From assembly GCA_026985515.1 (NCBI GenBank), contig JALSQH010000084.1, forward strand, positions 1 to 15,289: 15,289 nucleotides of DNA. The letters are read 5' to 3'. The DNA comes from a bacterium (GTDB taxonomy: Bacteria > JALSQH01). Every line of letters begins with the position of its first letter. The first letter of the stretch is position 1. Of the stretch, positions 1-15,289 are shown piece after piece. The translations under genes and the position numbers were made by a program. The notes below the pieces were generated by a model. That model had not been told where the DNA came from, did no database searches, and saw only the letters and a program-made list of their open reading frames with translations.

Positions 1-1312
1 GAACTTCAACCCCTGGAAATTCAGCACCAAATGGTGTGTTTCTCAGGTCATATATTCCAATAGCAGTGGCTCCAACCAGTACAATTTTATTTTTGAATTC
101 AGAAGGAGGAACTTTACCATCAAGCACGTCAACAAAACTATATGTTTTGAAAGTACCTGGAGGTCCCCGGTAGTTAATAAGCAGTTTTCCAGATTCGTTA
201 ACAGGTATTCTTCTCTTCCCAATTGCGAGGAGAGAAACCTCTCCTTCATCACCGATCTTCAATACTATGTCGCGATGCAGGTAAACTGCCGCAGTTATAA
301 GAGATAAAGATGGGTAATAATCATCCCTTCCGTGAAGGGTAACAAGCATCGGATGCCACCTGACCTCACCATCAAGATCAGGGATCATATTGAAAAAACC
401 CTGATATTTAACTGCCCTGCTCAGTATCGGAATATTTGGATTAACACCATAAGCCACCGGAACCCATGGCACATACCTGGAGTGGGGAAGCAGTACAATC
501 TTTATCCTGCTGTTCTCAATTAATTTTTCCCTTTCTTTTAATTCTATTGGAGAGAGGTGAGAAGCTTCCCTTTTAGAAAAGTAGAAGAAATAACCAAGCA
601 CAGAGGGGGGACCCTCTTTTAATGCTCTTGCCAGGAAATAATCGTTGTTTGCTTTTATTTCAGATTCCAGAATGTACCTGTAGAACCTGGCTGAATTTTC
701 AGATACTTCCTCCAGTAATTTTATTTTTGTGTTAACTTCAGCAAGCTCATCAGTCAGTTCTTTCATCTGAGCAACTATCTTTAATGTCGCTTTTTTAAGA
801 TAAAGCCTCCGCATTCTCCTTCCAAGAAGGGAAATTGTATCCTGAATTTCTTTCATCCTTTTCTTCAATTCCTCAAGCTGTTTCTCCACTTTTTCAGGAG
901 AAAGGGGCCATTGATTCAGCTTCATTTCATTGAAAAGCTTTTTAAACTCCTTTACTTTTACAAGCTCAGAATTCTTATCAGGTTCCGAGAAAACAATATC
1001 AAAAGCTATAACGGCAGGTTTATACTTTTTCATTAAATTTATAAATTCAGCTATCTTTGATCTGGGCCATGGCCATCTTCCCAGCTCCGGAGAGGCAAGA
1101 CTCTTTTCATCAATTGCAACAATCACAACTTCTGGATCAGGTTTTTCCGCTCCTCTCACAATAAATCTTGAATCAAGCAACTTCTCTTCAATTACACGAA
1201 AGAGATAAAGAGATGGAAATTTGAGGGAAAAGAGATAAAGGATTATCACAAAAAATGTGGCAATTACACTTATCCTGAAAGGGGTAAGTTTAAAAAACTT
1301 TTTCTTATTCAC
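1..1312 (-). CDS. CHASE2-domain membrane sensor protein (C-terminus beyond left edge)
   Basis: The reading frame is open from a GTG at 1312 to the window edge (437 codons seen, no stop). Residues 13-32 form one membrane span. It is followed by a typical CHASE2 opening: IEEKLLDSRF (41-50), DPEVVIVAIDEKSL (59-72), the RWPWPR motif (79-84) and AFDIVFSEPD (103-112). The region that closes CHASE2 (NKIVLVGATAIGIYDLRNTPF) lies just inside the left edge. CHASE2 is an extracytoplasmic sensory domain normally followed by two or three membrane spans and an adenylate cyclase, histidine kinase or Ser/Thr kinase domain; that output part is not visible. A charged coiled-coil-like stretch (about 138-205) is inserted inside the domain. 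The GTG shares its first G with the TAG stop of the upstream lipoprotein gene and has no good ribosome-binding site, so translational coupling is likely. I am sure of CHASE2 but not of the output activity. Confidence 0.88.
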   Translation of the reverse strand, partial: MNKKKFFKLTPFRISVIATFFVIILYLFSLKFPSLYLFRVIEEKLLDSRFIVRGAEKPDPEVVIVAIDEKSLASPELGRWPWPRSKIAEFINLMKKYKPAVIAFDIVFSEPDKNSELVKVKEFKKLFNEMKLNQWPLSPEKVEKQLEELKKRMKEIQDTISLLGRRMRRLYLKKATLKIVAQMKELTDELAEVNTKIKLLEEVSENSARFYRYILESEIKANNDYFLARALKEGPPSVLGYFFYFSKREASHLSPIELKEREKLIENSRIKIVLLPHSRYVPWVPVAYGVNPNIPILSRAVKYQGFFNMIPDLDGEVRWHPMLVTLHGRDDYYPSLSLITAAVYLHRDIVLKIGDEGEVSLLAIGKRRIPVNESGKLLINYRGPPGTFKTYSFVDVLDGKVPPSEFKNKIVLVGATAIGIYDLRNTPFGAEFPGVEV

Positions 1313-4300
1313 TACTGATTCACCACGAAATCAACTTTTTTCCAGAAACCTTCTATGCCAGTTTCCACAGGTTGAGCAAGTGAGTAATCAACCACACCGT
1401 CAGGATAGTAATAAATATTTCCCGAATGAACAGCAAAGAGTAAATAACTCCCCGGTATGAGATTAAAGAATGTCAGGTAACCACTGGTTGTGGTTACACT
1501 CTGCGAATAAGTAAAACCAGTGAGAAGATTTTTCATTGAAACAGTAACCCTGTCACCCTCCCAATCCCGTGGAAATGAGTAACCAACAGTTACATAACTT
1601 TTTATGTAAAAACTTCTGCTTCCAAAGTCAGTATCATCTGACAATTCTATCAGAGCAGAATTAAACTCTTCCGGATTAAAAAGAGATTCAATAGATGTTC
1701 CCCATCTCATCCTCCATTCACCGGCTGGCAAAGAGTATGAGAAAAATCCCCGGGAGTCAGTTTCAAAAATAAGGTCCACCGACTCTTCTGGATCCTCCAT
1801 AAGAAAATAGTATGCAACTTCGCCAAAGGCAGGGTTATATATTCTACCAGAGATGTTGTAACCTGAAGATGAAGAAACAGCAGGGAATGGCAGTATCACT
1901 TCTTCTGTTACCTCTACATCGTAAAGACTGAACTCTCCACCATCACCGAAAAACACTTTCCAGTATCTCCCCTGAAACAGATTCTTCTCCGTGTACTCTC
2001 TATAAATAAATTTCCCTTCCACACTTTTAACCACCGCTATCTTGCCTGCAAAATCCCTGAAACTTATCCCTGGAAATGTATATTGCCCCACTTTCATTTC
2101 TCCGAGATTTATAATCCCTCTTCCTGCCGGGATTGTAATGGACTCCGGAGAAAGGGTAACCTCAACATTGTAATCGTAAGGATATACCTGTAAAGACCAG
2201 CGTACAGGAAGCGGAGACTGTGGTTTAAAAGAGGTCAGATTAAGCGAAAAGAAACCTTCATCAATAGATGCAATAGCCGTTTGACCATACGCTCCGCAAC
2301 CAGAAATGGCGGTTATAAAACCACTCTTTACAGGTCCACCAGCAACAACCTTTCCTCTGACTGTGACATCGGTTACTCTGGCACCAATGCGAACATTCAT
2401 ACCATCGGTAATGCTCGCTGGTAATGAACTTTTCTCTCCTTCAAGGACATACTTCCCACTAAGAATAAATGGAACAAATCCATTATCTCCATTTTCAATG
2501 GAGAATGCAGCAGTCCCATTGTTATCGGTGGTTGACAATACTCCTTCCATTTCCGTCAAAATCAATATTTTCTTACCTGACACCGGTGAACCATCTGCAA
2601 CATCCGTTACTGTGAGTGTGAAATTAATGGGGTGAGCTTTCTGTCTTTTTACATAGAGAATCTTCTCTCCCCCCCGACTTGAGACCACAAGAGGGGTTTT
2701 ATCAAATTCCATGTTTTTGAATACCTCACCTACTGTGGTTACCACCTTCCCGTCTGAGACTCCATCAAGATCTCCCTCACTCTCAATTCCATCCACCATG
2801 TATCTGAGTACATACCTCTCTCCATTATCAATAATCCCGTTACTGTTGTCATCGATCCAGAAGGAAAACTTCACACCACCTCCACAACCTGTATTGTAAA
2901 CAGCTATGGTTGTGTTATCGCTGTAGGGTGAAAGATCCACTGGATTATTCTCAGAGCCTTCAACCCTCTTACCATCAATAAAAATATCCGGGCTTCCAGG
3001 TTCCTGATCAAAAAGCGTAATATCATAAGAACCTGCAGCAAACACTCCTCCATTATGATATCCGGCTCTTTCACTGCACTGGAGAAACCCATCTCCATTT
3101 TTATCCTCAAAGGCAAAAAGAGCAACCCCTTTTGAGAGAATATCGGAGGGGATCCTAAGAGAATATCCCACATCTCCTCCATTTTCATTGATGATAATCC
3201 GTGTAACGGGAACCCCATAAAAGACCGATTCAGTAATATTATCTCCAAATTTATAATTTGAGTAAGCTGCAATCACAAGTTTGCCTCCAGATGCATTGTG
3301 GACAATTCCACCTACTACATCCCCGGTAGTACTGAGGTTATTATCCCACAGAACCGGATATGTTAAAGAATATGAGTATGATGCAAATGATGTAACTGGC
3401 GAATAAAAATCTCCTGTTAGAATGTAATAACTTCCATATTCATCTCCATAAAAACCGGTAACTACACTCACCGGCGACAGGTAGAATCTATTATCCCTGA
3501 ACAATGCATATTTTCTTCCAGGTATAACTATTCCGCTTCTTATTACAATTAAAGATTTTGCGGCGATATTTCCTGCTTCATCCCTGACCACTATATTAAA
3601 AAAGTTTACACCATCCCTAACAGGTAGATACCGATCCAGGCTTGTAACACCTTCAAAATTAACAACCTTTTCCCATGTTTCTGATACATCGTCATAGCGG
3701 TAAATTCCACCGGTAACTTCCTCTGAAAAATCAATAGAAAAATTCTCCTCATCCGCGAATGTGTAAGTGATATCATTGGGAGAATTAACAAATATTTCAG
3801 GCAGACGCGAATCAATTTTCAGAGAAAAGCTCTTTTCCTCACTTACATTACCCGCCCTGTCAACTGCTCTCACAAACCATGTGGAAACAGGCTTTTCAAT
3901 TCCGTAAGAAACCATAAAAGGATACTCCCACCTGTTGGTTTCCATGACTCTTATCCACAAAATTCCATCGGGAGATATCTCAACACGATCAATTACCCCG
4001 GGCGGAGAGTCAGAAGCAGTACCAGTAAACCATGTCGGGTTATTCTCAGCATTTACTACAATTGAATTACTATCAGGATTCACCACAGGAGGGGTATTAT
4101 CCACAATTATGTGAACAGAAGATGTTCCCAGCATCTCAAGATTCAGCCCATTTCCAGCTTTGCACAGAAAATAATAATCCCCTTCCCTGTCTGGATCAAA
4201 CTGGAAGGACCAGTTAGTGGTACCGGCTGCCTTATACCATGTGGCACCCCCATCAGGGGAAATCTTTACGACCCTAACGACCGTATTCTTTGCCCAGGCT

Positions 4301-4749
4301 CTGCCCCTCACAACATAGGGAAGATGAGAAGAGTTGATATACAGGTCTGATGCAGGATCGGTAAACTCACAATTCAACACAGCTTCTGCAGGTGGTTTTG
4401 CTATTATATATTCCTGTTTCTTCAGTGTTTCGACATTCCCTGCGAGATCCACTGAGAAGTACCTCAGTGAGGTTGAATGGTCAATATAAATTTTGACAGA
4501 ATTCTTTGCTACCTTTGTATTGGGATCCCCTATTGAGGGAATAACATCATCAATTCCATAATAAATAGTGGCAGGTTCACTGGTGGTAAGAGTCACCGTG
4601 ATGGGGTAATAGTATGTTCCTCCCGGTGGATAGGCAGTTGTTACAGGAGGAGTTGTATCCCTCTTCGCTTTCCGCTCCTCTTTTTTATGGCATGAAGAAA
4701 ACAGAGAAAGAATGATAAGGAAAACAAAAAACTTTTTTATTCCTTCCAC
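1312..4749 (-). CDS. Giant multidomain surface lipoprotein (Ig-like, EF-hand-like loops)
   Basis: This is an 1145-aa probable lipoprotein of unknown function. A short basic N-terminus and hydrophobic core end in LFSSC with Cys20 as the lipidation residue; F rather than L at -3 is slightly atypical. A chitobiase C-terminal-like beta domain follows (about 32-118, beginning TPPVTTAYPPGG). Then come Ig-like repeats at about 125-220, 217-313 and 316-407, two of them sharing an ISPDG...W core and the last two AGN near their ends. Two canonical EF-hand-type calcium loops occur at 549-560 (DKNGDGFLQCSE) and 633-644 (DDNSNGIIDNGE). A Big_1-like or carboxypeptidase-regulatory-like region spans about 698-790, with further beta-rich modules to the C-terminus. 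The GTG at 4749 was chosen because GGGAGG lies 5 bases upstream; an in-frame GTG at 4755 lies inside that Shine-Dalgarno. It overlaps the CHASE2 gene by one base. Adhesion, matrix binding or cargo display are inferences only. Confidence 0.85.
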   Translation of the reverse strand: MEGIKKFFVFLIILSLFSSCHKKEERKAKRDTTPPVTTAYPPGGTYYYPITVTLTTSEPATIYYGIDDVIPSIGDPNTKVAKNSVKIYIDHSTSLRYFSVDLAGNVETLKKQEYIIAKPPAEAVLNCEFTDPASDLYINSSHLPYVVRGRAWAKNTVVRVVKISPDGGATWYKAAGTTNWSFQFDPDREGDYYFLCKAGNGLNLEMLGTSSVHIIVDNTPPVVNPDSNSIVVNAENNPTWFTGTASDSPPGVIDRVEISPDGILWIRVMETNRWEYPFMVSYGIEKPVSTWFVRAVDRAGNVSEEKSFSLKIDSRLPEIFVNSPNDITYTFADEENFSIDFSEEVTGGIYRYDDVSETWEKVVNFEGVTSLDRYLPVRDGVNFFNIVVRDEAGNIAAKSLIVIRSGIVIPGRKYALFRDNRFYLSPVSVVTGFYGDEYGSYYILTGDFYSPVTSFASYSYSLTYPVLWDNNLSTTGDVVGGIVHNASGGKLVIAAYSNYKFGDNITESVFYGVPVTRIIINENGGDVGYSLRIPSDILSKGVALFAFEDKNGDGFLQCSERAGYHNGGVFAAGSYDITLFDQEPGSPDIFIDGKRVEGSENNPVDLSPYSDNTTIAVYNTGCGGGVKFSFWIDDNSNGIIDNGERYVLRYMVDGIESEGDLDGVSDGKVVTTVGEVFKNMEFDKTPLVVSSRGGEKILYVKRQKAHPINFTLTVTDVADGSPVSGKKILILTEMEGVLSTTDNNGTAAFSIENGDNGFVPFILSGKYVLEGEKSSLPASITDGMNVRIGARVTDVTVRGKVVAGGPVKSGFITAISGCGAYGQTAIASIDEGFFSLNLTSFKPQSPLPVRWSLQVYPYDYNVEVTLSPESITIPAGRGIINLGEMKVGQYTFPGISFRDFAGKIAVVKSVEGKFIYREYTEKNLFQGRYWKVFFGDGGEFSLYDVEVTEEVILPFPAVSSSSGYNISGRIYNPAFGEVAYYFLMEDPEESVDLIFETDSRGFFSYSLPAGEWRMRWGTSIESLFNPEEFNSALIELSDDTDFGSRSFYIKSYVTVGYSFPRDWEGDRVTVSMKNLLTGFTYSQSVTTTSGYLTFFNLIPGSYLLFAVHSGNIYYYPDGVVDYSLAQPVETGIEGFWKKVDFVVNQ

Positions 4750-4773
4750 ATGCACCTCCCTTTTTTCAAGTAA

Positions 4774-13586: not shown

Positions 13587-14225
13587 TTAAGTTATACGAG
13601 TATCACTTTTTTCTGCAAGTATTTTCTTTACCTTTTTAAGAGTTACATATGTGGGGGGCATCAGCTTTATCTGATTTCTCTCAGCTCTGGTGATGGCATC
13701 CTCAGGTCTGATCCATATATACTCCTCTATCTCCCGGGGATTGGGGAATACCTCAGGCTCACCTTCAAGTTTCACAAGAAAAAATCTCGTATCAAATCTC
13801 ACGGGAAAGACAGGTGGGGTCAGCCAGTGATCCAGGTACATTATATTTTCGGGGACAGAAATATCACACTCTTTCACCACATCATCAAAAGTAAGAAGCC
13901 CCTTCCGGTACCTCTCCACCACATTCAGATTTCCTCTATCACTTCCCAGAAATATACCGGTTTCCTCAAACACCTCTCTGATACCAGCCACAATATGAGC
14001 AATCATTTCCCTCTCACTCATGAAAGCAAGAGAAGAAAGATTCTTCAAAAGTTCCAAAGAAACCCTTCCGCTCAGAATAGAATTGTAATCTTCATCATCA
14101 ACTCTCCCACCGGGATAAACATGGAATCCACCAAGAAATTTCAGGGATTTTTTCCTCAATGTCAGAAGAACTTTACCATCAGGGGTAAGAAGGATAAATG
14201 TGGAAGCCTTAAAAATTGGAGACAT
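13587..14225 (-). CDS. NUDT19-like Nudix hydrolase with split Nudix box
   Basis: This is a 212-aa putative nucleotide-diphosphate-derivative hydrolase. The canonical Nudix box is interrupted: its start is at VYPGGRVDDED (36-46) and its catalytic half, REVFEETG (83-90, metal-binding Glu87/Glu88), comes some 30 residues later than in a standard box. This split arrangement is known from NUDT19/RP2-type proteins, which hydrolyse CoA and acyl-CoA to 4'-phosphopantetheine products, so a CoA diphosphatase activity is a reasonable guess. The N-terminal strand ASTFILLTPDGKVLLTLR fits the fold. The ATG at 14225 was chosen; a GTG two codons upstream is possible, and neither has a clear Shine-Dalgarno. 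The gene lies upstream of rpsB on the same strand and may read through into it. Confidence 0.75.
   Translation of the reverse strand: MSPIFKASTFILLTPDGKVLLTLRKKSLKFLGGFHVYPGGRVDDEDYNSILSGRVSLELLKNLSSLAFMSEREMIAHIVAGIREVFEETGIFLGSDRGNLNVVERYRKGLLTFDDVVKECDISVPENIMYLDHWLTPPVFPVRFDTRFFLVKLEGEPEVFPNPREIEEYIWIRPEDAITRAERNQIKLMPPTYVTLKKVKKILAEKSDTRIT
13591..13618 (-). promoter_or_regulatory. Predicted rpsB operon promoter inside the 3' end of the Nudix gene
   Basis: On the minus strand, TTGCAG (13618-13613) and TATAAC (13596-13591) are 16 bases apart. Both boxes lie within the last codons of the upstream Nudix gene, whose stop is at 13589-13587. A start near 13584 would give a leader of about 98 bases containing the complete hairpin structure. 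Confidence 0.5.
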
Positions 14226-14236
14226 CTTCACTTAAA

Positions 14237-14251: not shown

Positions 14252-14281
14252 TGTTACAAAATCCAGTGGCCGTCGTATAAT
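14252..14281 (+). promoter_or_regulatory. Candidate promoter of the ECF sigma operon (possibly autoregulated)
   Basis: TGTTAC (14252-14257), 16 bases, then CGTA (14274-14277) resembles the ECF-type promoter arrangement known for SigW-like factors (TGAAAC, 16 bases, CGTA). The overlapping TATAAT (14276-14281), with GTTACA (14253-14258) 17 bases upstream, also makes a sigma-70 promoter. Either would start transcription near 14288, just ahead of the GGGAG ribosome-binding site. Confidence 0.45.
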
Positions 14282-14298: not shown

Positions 14299-14832
14299 AT
14301 GTACAGTGAATATTCTGACAGAGAACTCTTTGAGCTTTTCAGGGAAGGAAGAGAAGAACCTTTTGAGATTGTTTATGAGAGGTACAAACCCAGACTTTAC
14401 GTTTTTCTCAGGAATCTTATTCCAGAAATACCACCAGATGAGATAGGGGATATAATTCAGGATATATTTTTGAAAGTAATAGAAAAGGCAACCTCTTTTA
14501 AAAAGAAGCATAAATTCTCAACCTGGATATATACAATTGCCAGAAACAAAGCTTACGACTACATGAGAAAGAGGAAAAGAAGAAAAAACCCTGATCCCCC
14601 GGTTGAGAGAACCCCCGAGGAAAAAAGTATTCACAGGGAAGAGTGGGAAAGGGTGCTCTCAGCTGTTACCAGACTTCCTGTGGAGTACAGAGAGGTGGTT
14701 CTTCTGAGGTCAGAGGGATTCTCATACAGGGAAATTTCAAAAATCCTCTTTATCCCTGAGAGGGTCGCCATAACAAGAATGCACAGAGCAGTGAAAAAAT
14801 TGAAGGAGGAACTGGGCAATGAAAACTTTTGA
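14299..14832 (+). CDS. ECF-family RNA polymerase sigma factor
   Basis: This is a 177-aa sigma factor made of regions 2 and 4 only. Sigma-2 spans about 21-92, with DIIQDIFLKVIEKATSF (51-67) in the core-binding helices and FSTWIYTIARNKAYDYMRKR (73-92) for -10 recognition. A basic linker follows (KRKRRKNPDPP). Sigma-4 spans about 115-172, with LPVEYREVVLLRSEGFSYRE leading into the helix-turn-helix ISKILFIPERVAITRMHRA that reads the -35. GGGAG lies 6 bases before the ATG. The gene overlaps the next one by 14 bases. Its activity is probably held by the downstream single-span membrane protein, as in other ECF/anti-sigma pairs. Confidence 0.94.
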   Translation: MYSEYSDRELFELFREGREEPFEIVYERYKPRLYVFLRNLIPEIPPDEIGDIIQDIFLKVIEKATSFKKKHKFSTWIYTIARNKAYDYMRKRKRRKNPDPPVERTPEEKSIHREEWERVLSAVTRLPVEYREVVLLRSEGFSYREISKILFIPERVAITRMHRAVKKLKEELGNENF

Positions 14833-15196
14833 TAGAGAATTTGAAAGGGAAGAAAGAAAGATCATAGAGATGGTATCAAATGCTCTTTCGCAGCAGAGGA
14901 AAAAGGAAGAAAGTTTTTATAAGAATCTCAGGGCTCCTCAATACTCCCGGCCGGGGTATAGAATATGGTGGGTGCTGGCACCCTTTCTCATGATTGCTCT
15001 TGCTCTACTGATACTTTCCCTTCTCCCTGCCTCTCCACCCACGATTGATAGGATTGATTCTCAGATCTACTCGGTGGAAGAAACACTGCAACTTATTGAA
15101 CCCGATCAGCAGGAACTGGCATCCACAAACATTGATGAGGAGATATGGCAAATTGAAGAGGAATTTAAAACTTTGAAGGAGGAACAAAATGGTTAA
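14819..15196 (+). CDS. Putative single-span anti-sigma factor, lacking a zinc motif
   Basis: This 125-aa protein has a charged cytoplasmic N-terminus (1-48, helical, rich in Glu/Arg/Lys), one membrane span (about 49-69, IWWVLAPFLMIALALLILSL) and an acidic periplasmic C-terminus (70-125) that looks helical. It contains no Cys and no His, so it is not a zinc-binding (ZAS/ChrR/RsrA) anti-sigma. Its size and layout recall CnrY-type anti-sigma factors, which clamp their sigma with a short N-terminal helix. The function is inferred from position: it starts inside the sigma gene (14-base overlap, GGAGG 9 bases upstream) and overlaps the next gene by 8 bases. I see no direct sequence signature that proves sigma binding. 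Confidence 0.7.
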   Translation: MKTFDREFEREERKIIEMVSNALSQQRKKEESFYKNLRAPQYSRPGYRIWWVLAPFLMIALALLILSLLPASPPTIDRIDSQIYSVEETLQLIEPDQQELASTNIDEEIWQIEEEFKTLKEEQNG

Positions 15197-15289
15197 AAAA
15201 GGAATTATCTGGGTAATTTTTCTCTCTTTACTCTCACTCCCACTTTATTCTCAGCCCCGAGGACCGATGGGACCGGGCTATGGTATGGG
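15189..15289 (+). CDS. Secreted Gly/Pro/Met-rich protein, N-terminus only
   Basis: Only the first 33 codons are present. Lys-Lys followed by a hydrophobic core (IIWVIFLSLLSLPLY) and a likely cleavage after YS form a signal peptide. The mature protein begins QPRGPMGPGYGM, a Gly/Pro/Met-rich start often seen in Spy/CpxP/CnrX-like periplasmic stress or metal sensors, though such low-complexity starts occur elsewhere too. GGAGG stands 6 bases upstream of the ATG, and the gene overlaps the putative anti-sigma gene by 8 bases. The position as third gene after sigma and anti-sigma supports a role as periplasmic sensor or as a target of the stress response. Confidence 0.65.
   Translation, partial: MVKKGIIWVIFLSLLSLPLYSQPRGPMGPGYGM

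Follow-up and report, generated by a model that had tools for sequence, protein, structure and literature searches.

A recurrent three-gene ECF sigma factor module with a secreted helical protein, possibly an envelope-stress switch and probably not a metal sensor

ECF sigma factors are one of the main routes by which bacteria sense the state of their envelope, and for many ECF groups the sensor is unknown. The stretch of bacterial DNA analysed here ends in an ECF sigma factor gene, a gene for a one-span membrane protein and the beginning of a gene for a secreted protein, which raises the question of whether these three genes belong together and, if so, what signal they read. The window, i.e. 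the whole stretch, is all of contig C84 (15,289 bases) of a genome of 2.36 Mb in 268 contigs. Among the genomes compared with it, one (G001, referred to below as the relative) belongs to the same GTDB family but to another genus, and the remainder share only the domain rank. The features of the locus are listed below.

14252–14281, + strand: TGTTAC-N16-CGTATAAT, a candidate promoter in front of the sigma gene, with element and spacing kept in the relative.
14299–14832, + strand: ECF sigma factor, 177 residues (Pfam Sigma70_r2 and Sigma70_r4_2 above cut-off; TIGR02937; 73% identity with the relative).
14819–15196, + strand: one-span putative anti-sigma factor, 125 residues, assigned from its topology and from its slot, which is that of the one-span anti-sigma factors (zinc-finger or zinc-free) of other modules.
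15189–15289, + strand: 5' part of the gene for a secreted helical protein (signal peptide and Gly-Pro-Met linker), with the MVKK start and the overlap found in the relative.

The genes overlap head to tail, the sigma and one-span genes by 14 bp and the one-span and third genes by 8 bp, and the open reading frames lie where a sequence-only reading of the window had placed three overlapping genes for an ECF sigma factor, a Cys- and His-free one-span protein and a secreted protein. The third gene starts with an ATG at 15189, its product begins MVKKGIIWVIFLSLLSLPLYSQPRGPMGPGYGM and the contig end cuts the gene after 33 codons. Extension of the contig had been proposed as a check; searches with the protein of the relative and with the family profile did not recover the rest of the third gene from its own genome, and it was in the relative that a complete trio could be read. 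A search of the window against Rfam found no family. By eye, a NUDIX-like gene (13587–14231, − strand) lies divergently upstream of the sigma gene, and in the relative a NUDIX-like homologue (L065:1-259, − strand) is also divergent upstream, with an enoyl-CoA hydratase-like gene between it and the sigma gene. Also by eye, the other end of the window (2–4755, − strand) holds a gene for a 1147-residue predicted lipoprotein with Ig-like repeats (1312–4755) adjoining a CHASE2-like sensor gene (2–1312).

The complete trio of the relative lies on a 3.4 kb contig (MAG record JALTID010000125.1). Its sigma factor and one-span protein are 73 and 46% identical to those of the window, respectively, and the MVKK start of the third gene and its 8 bp overlap with the anti-sigma gene are identical in the two genomes. 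The 33-codon fragment of the window matches the third protein of the relative with a BLASTP E of 2e-4 in a single comparison, the similarity being mostly in the signal peptide. The gene arrangement is not a product of chance, since the trio is present in a second genome of the family. A GTDB scan with the anti-sigma pair as query matched only the relative. After the trio, the relative has a gene for a small secreted protein of 86 residues and then a gene for a PurA-like protein; neither of these two genes is an efflux gene. A homologue of the 86-residue gene is found in the genome of the window inside contig C205, with no third gene adjoining, and near it (L092:1900-2400, G000:C205) are AEPPIGSAVKV repeats of a kind that may break contigs.

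A search of 386 genomes with the third protein of the relative as a single query gave matches at E 1e-4 or better in ten genomes of other families. The profile A3, built from 16 members that score high by construction, had matches of E 1e-20 or better in 12 families, 18 genomes in all, and in 13 of the 18 the sigma, one-span and third genes stand together. In G051 the sigma gene is present, with space for a middle gene, and in G114 and G257 the contig begins with the one-span gene (a sigma gene of G257 lies at the margin of a different contig). Among the 18, a third gene with no sigma gene next to it is seen only in the two genomes of family f81. Weaker profile matches in G133, G281 and G061 also adjoin an ECF gene, and G090 has a different gene order. 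The module of sigma factor, one-span anti-sigma factor and secreted protein postulated from the window is thus found both in the relative and in other families. In family f31 (L012, L016) an ECF sigma/anti-sigma pair faces a convergent true LTXXQ gene (PF07813 above cut-off), a further neighbourhood of the ECF/Spy-like kind.

The sigma factor of the window consists of sigma regions 2 and 4 (Sigma70_r2, E 6e-18; Sigma70_r4_2, E 6e-11; both above the Pfam cut-offs) and little else, as is characteristic of ECF sigma factors, and also matches TIGR02937 above cut-off. PF08281 is found above cut-off at two places in the genome, and the sigma factor is therefore one of about two ECF sigma factors there. 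A search of the PDB gave SigW (3e-14) and RpoE (3e-13), with CnrH weaker (8.6e-7), and no NCBIfam equivalog was matched at cut-off. The best NCBIfam match, NF009166, was rejected as a lineage marker, as ECF sigma factors outside the module match it too. In a sigma tree, 17 of the 18 module sigma factors fall on one side of a branch with support 87/90, and module membership requires three changes on the tree compared with a mean of 14.7 after shuffling of the labels (none of 500 shuffles was as low). A single origin of the module sigma factors is thus likely but short of proven, because two long-branched non-module sigma factors sit inside the group and one module sigma factor (G251) sits outside. 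The sigma factor apparently belongs to a distinct, little-described ECF lineage, which may already carry a formal ECF group number. The suggestion that the locus represents an undescribed ECF group sensing metal or envelope stress accordingly survives in part: the tree supports a distinct lineage, and the lack of conserved ligands described below speaks against metal.

The one-span protein of the window contains neither Cys nor His. Its membrane span covers approximately residues 51–69, with more Lys and Arg on the N-terminal side, so that the layout is that of a membrane anti-sigma factor: encoded with its sigma factor, with a predicted cytoplasmic N-terminus and one span. The cytoplasmic part of about 50 residues is modelled as one long helix (residues 2–35), and the periplasmic part is acidic and is modelled with low confidence as a hairpin of two helices. 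Searches with the protein against Pfam and NCBIfam gave no match of note, in agreement with the earlier view that it has no family signature, and a comparison with solved anti-sigma factors gave no sequence match. Class I anti-sigma domains (ASDI) average 101 residues, and those under 50 have been set aside as possible class II domains (PMC7406223). The window protein lacks the class I features (ASDI, zf-HC2: a domain built of four helices and some 100 residues, in many cases with HxxxCxxC). In size, its cytoplasmic segment matches class II (CnrY-like) domains, which are short and have helices that wrap around regions 2 and 4 of the sigma factor. On these length statistics the protein would have an unusually short, minimal zinc-free putative sigma-binding segment, CnrY-like in size. 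Among 13 module anti-sigma factors, seven have a zinc-finger motif in the cytoplasmic part and six, including those of the window and the relative, do not. The tail beyond the span is 54–110 residues long in these 13 proteins and acidic in 12 of them; for three control tails that do not belong to the module, the net charge is +3, +1 and −4. Across modules, no clear general trend pairs the charge of the tail with that of the secreted protein. In G257 (L058:52-1396) the only basic tail (net +8) occurs together with the secreted protein of greatest acidity (net −13), and the two partners may have swapped charge.

The complete third protein of the relative has 197 residues, is Sec-secreted and is all-helical in a single-sequence model (mean pLDDT 79.6), with helices at residues 45–58, 60–72, 74–95, 98–123 and 127–195. 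Besides a signal peptide and these helices it has a linker of low confidence (pLDDT under 50 at residues 1–27 and 29–38), to which the Gly-Pro-Met stretch of the window gene corresponds. An alignment of 16 members shows one Leu conserved in all 16, an FDLR-like motif, and an Arg and two Ile conserved in the long last helix; beyond the start Met, no His, Cys or Met column reaches 40%. In 12 of the 16 a Trp closes the chain or stands one residue before its end (e.g. L049:3444-4055, L058:824-1396 and L065:2202-2792). This C-terminal Trp could be a binding signal or a PDZ or protease recognition signal. In G282 (L056:306-2126), a gene resembling a PDZ-containing S41 (CtpA-like) peptidase was noted by eye upstream of the module.

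Searches of the secreted family against Pfam and NCBIfam produced no convincing match, the best of the scattered hits being DUF4559 (one member, E 3e-5) and a conjugal TraP model (4e-4). PF07813 (LTXXQ) was not matched by the family members listed, an exact LTxxQ occurs in two of the 16 members (one copy each) and hhalign gave no match between the family and LTXXQ proteins, which were represented by two sequences only. With the model of the relative, Foldseek had no match that reached E 0.001, and VIA-align returned only generic helical bundles with Z up to 8.1, scores that mean little for helical proteins; Spy, CpxP and CnrX are not among the structure matches listed. A search for LTxxQ motifs, CnrX-like helical hairpins and His or Met ligands had been suggested for this protein; its predicted helical nature agrees with that expectation, and the motif and the ligands do not.

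The element TGTTAC-N16-CGTATAAT precedes the sigma gene in both genera, and with spacers of 14–18 it has one match per genome, before the sigma gene, and none in the reversed control. It resembles promoters of the SigW type, for which the form is TGAAAC-N16-CGTA. Its use by the module sigma factor is a hypothesis, because the window element is at the same time a good match to a sigma-70 promoter (GTTACA-N17-TATAAT, 10/12). A relaxed form of the TGTTAC pattern is no commoner than its reversed control, and no regulon is claimed. In five other families (L049, L051, L055, L059 and L061), CAATAAA-N13/14-CGT stands about 23–37 bases before the module sigma gene; the pattern was spotted by eye and then counted, with five of its seven matches in 129 kb of sequence preceding module sigma genes, and genome-wide it is not enriched over the reversed control. 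The positions of both elements would fit autoregulation, and the gene order, topology and promoter together fit an autoregulated ECF switch.

We consider it about an even chance that the locus is an ECF module for envelope stress whose secreted protein both acts on the periplasmic hairpin of the anti-sigma factor and is an output; which proteins touch, which way control runs, what the signal is and that proteolysis takes part are what we infer. At rest, the short cytoplasmic helix of the one-span protein would tether the sigma factor to the membrane, and the secreted helical protein would contact and stabilize the acidic periplasmic hairpin. Envelope stress, in the form of misfolded or mislocalized envelope material, would draw the secreted protein off the anti-sigma factor, which would then be inactivated, probably by regulated proteolysis. 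The freed sigma factor would transcribe a small regulon including its own operon, and induction of the operon would raise the level of the secreted protein again, giving negative feedback. What the families share is the lineage of the sigma factor, the acidic tail and the secreted protein, whereas the cytoplasmic domain varies, and this suggests that sensing in common takes place on the periplasmic side. Against this model, hhalign found no match between the family and the pair of LTXXQ proteins, the TGTTAC element of the window can be a plain sigma-70 promoter and differs from the CAATAAA form in other families, that form lacks genome-wide enrichment over its reversed control, and in f81 the third gene lies away from a sigma gene.

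The main rival is a role as output only, in which the secreted protein is a periplasmic chaperone or envelope protein and the anti-sigma factor senses alone, for example through proteolysis of its hairpin. A long, charged helical protein would suit a chaperone, and in Phocaeicola vulgatus the Spy-like gene of the CirY-CirZ-Spy system is among the strongly induced genes under CirY control, its product being interpreted as a chaperone. The family is linked almost constantly to ECF/anti-sigma pairs, beside the gene for the anti-sigma factor, which is a closer association than a simple target would require, and we regard an output-only role as possible but rather doubtful. It is very improbable that the third gene is simply an unrelated downstream gene for a secreted or matrix protein, such that the gene of the window need not equal that of the relative: the few codons visible in the window and the confinement of their similarity mostly to the signal peptide leave room for it, but the start, the overlap and the gene order are shared with the relative and the trio recurs in other families.

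The remaining alternative is metal sensing as in CnrH-CnrY-CnrX, where binding of metal by the secreted protein would cause the anti-sigma factor to free the sigma factor for transcription of efflux genes. The gene roles and the small zinc-free one-span anti-sigma factor are as in CnrYXH, and the third protein of the relative has a subthreshold match to Metal_resist (E 0.07) and five His residues in its mature part. CnrX of Cupriavidus metallidurans, however, is membrane-anchored, binds Co and Ni and requires Met123 (PMC7689651), and the conserved His or Met ligands expected of such a periplasmic sensor are lacking in the 16 members. The third protein matched no Pfam metal-resistance family at cut-off, LTxxQ is rare, and a look for efflux genes beyond the third gene, which had been proposed, showed that neither of the two genes following the trio of the relative is of this kind. 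Metal sensing, one of the two signals considered in the sequence-only reading, is therefore unlikely because no ligands are conserved. Envelope stress is favoured instead because of the CirY-CirZ-Spy parallel and the shared periplasmic parts.

A sigma factor, an anti-sigma factor and a periplasmic helical partner make up a kind of system that is already known. What seems to be new is the family of the third protein, the breadth of its association with one ECF lineage and, in the family of the window, an anti-sigma factor that is minimal and zinc-free. We suggest, more tentatively than the mechanism itself, an ECF lineage across many families whose defining feature is a family of secreted helical co-sensors (lacking from Pfam and NCBIfam and mostly with a C-terminal Trp) that read envelope stress via the acidic hairpin, with the zinc-finger holding domain replaced in the family of the window by a zinc-free segment of about 50 residues. 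The module looks like a widespread, little-studied stress switch and probably not a metal sensor. The secreted family, found in 12 families and nearly always with one ECF lineage, is a concrete candidate sensor or effector and would explain loci now read only as a sigma factor with hypothetical proteins.

Among known systems, RpoE-RseA-RseB of Escherichia coli likewise combines an envelope-stress sigma factor, a one-span anti-sigma factor and a periplasmic partner of the latter. RseB is a larger protein of a different kind from the third protein here, and RseA has a class I domain, unlike the short cytoplasmic part of the window protein. Spy, CpxP and LTXXQ proteins (PF07813) resemble the third family in being small, secreted and all-helical and are tied to envelope stress, but the members listed lack a PF07813 match, LTxxQ is found in only two of 16 and the family has a long single C-terminal helix and a C-terminal Trp. 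CnrH-CnrY-CnrX shares the ECF sigma factor, the small one-span anti-sigma factor without a zinc finger and the helical periplasmic partner, but in contrast to the anchored CnrX with its Met123 the third family consists of secreted proteins in which no metal ligand is conserved. The CirY-CirZ-Spy system of P. vulgatus has, in the same order, an ECF sigma factor, an anti-sigma factor and a small helical periplasmic protein whose gene is transcribed with theirs, and CirY drives its own gene and the third gene (PMC13114119). Deletion of its anti-sigma factor induces the sigma factor and the Spy-like gene, along with two further genes that may have a role in peptidoglycan, and the system is strongly induced in colitis (PMC13114119). 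The P. vulgatus third protein owes its name to a structural resemblance to Spy, whereas the likeness here is one of layout and the organism is a different one; judged on that layout, CirY-CirZ-Spy is the best published parallel to the module.
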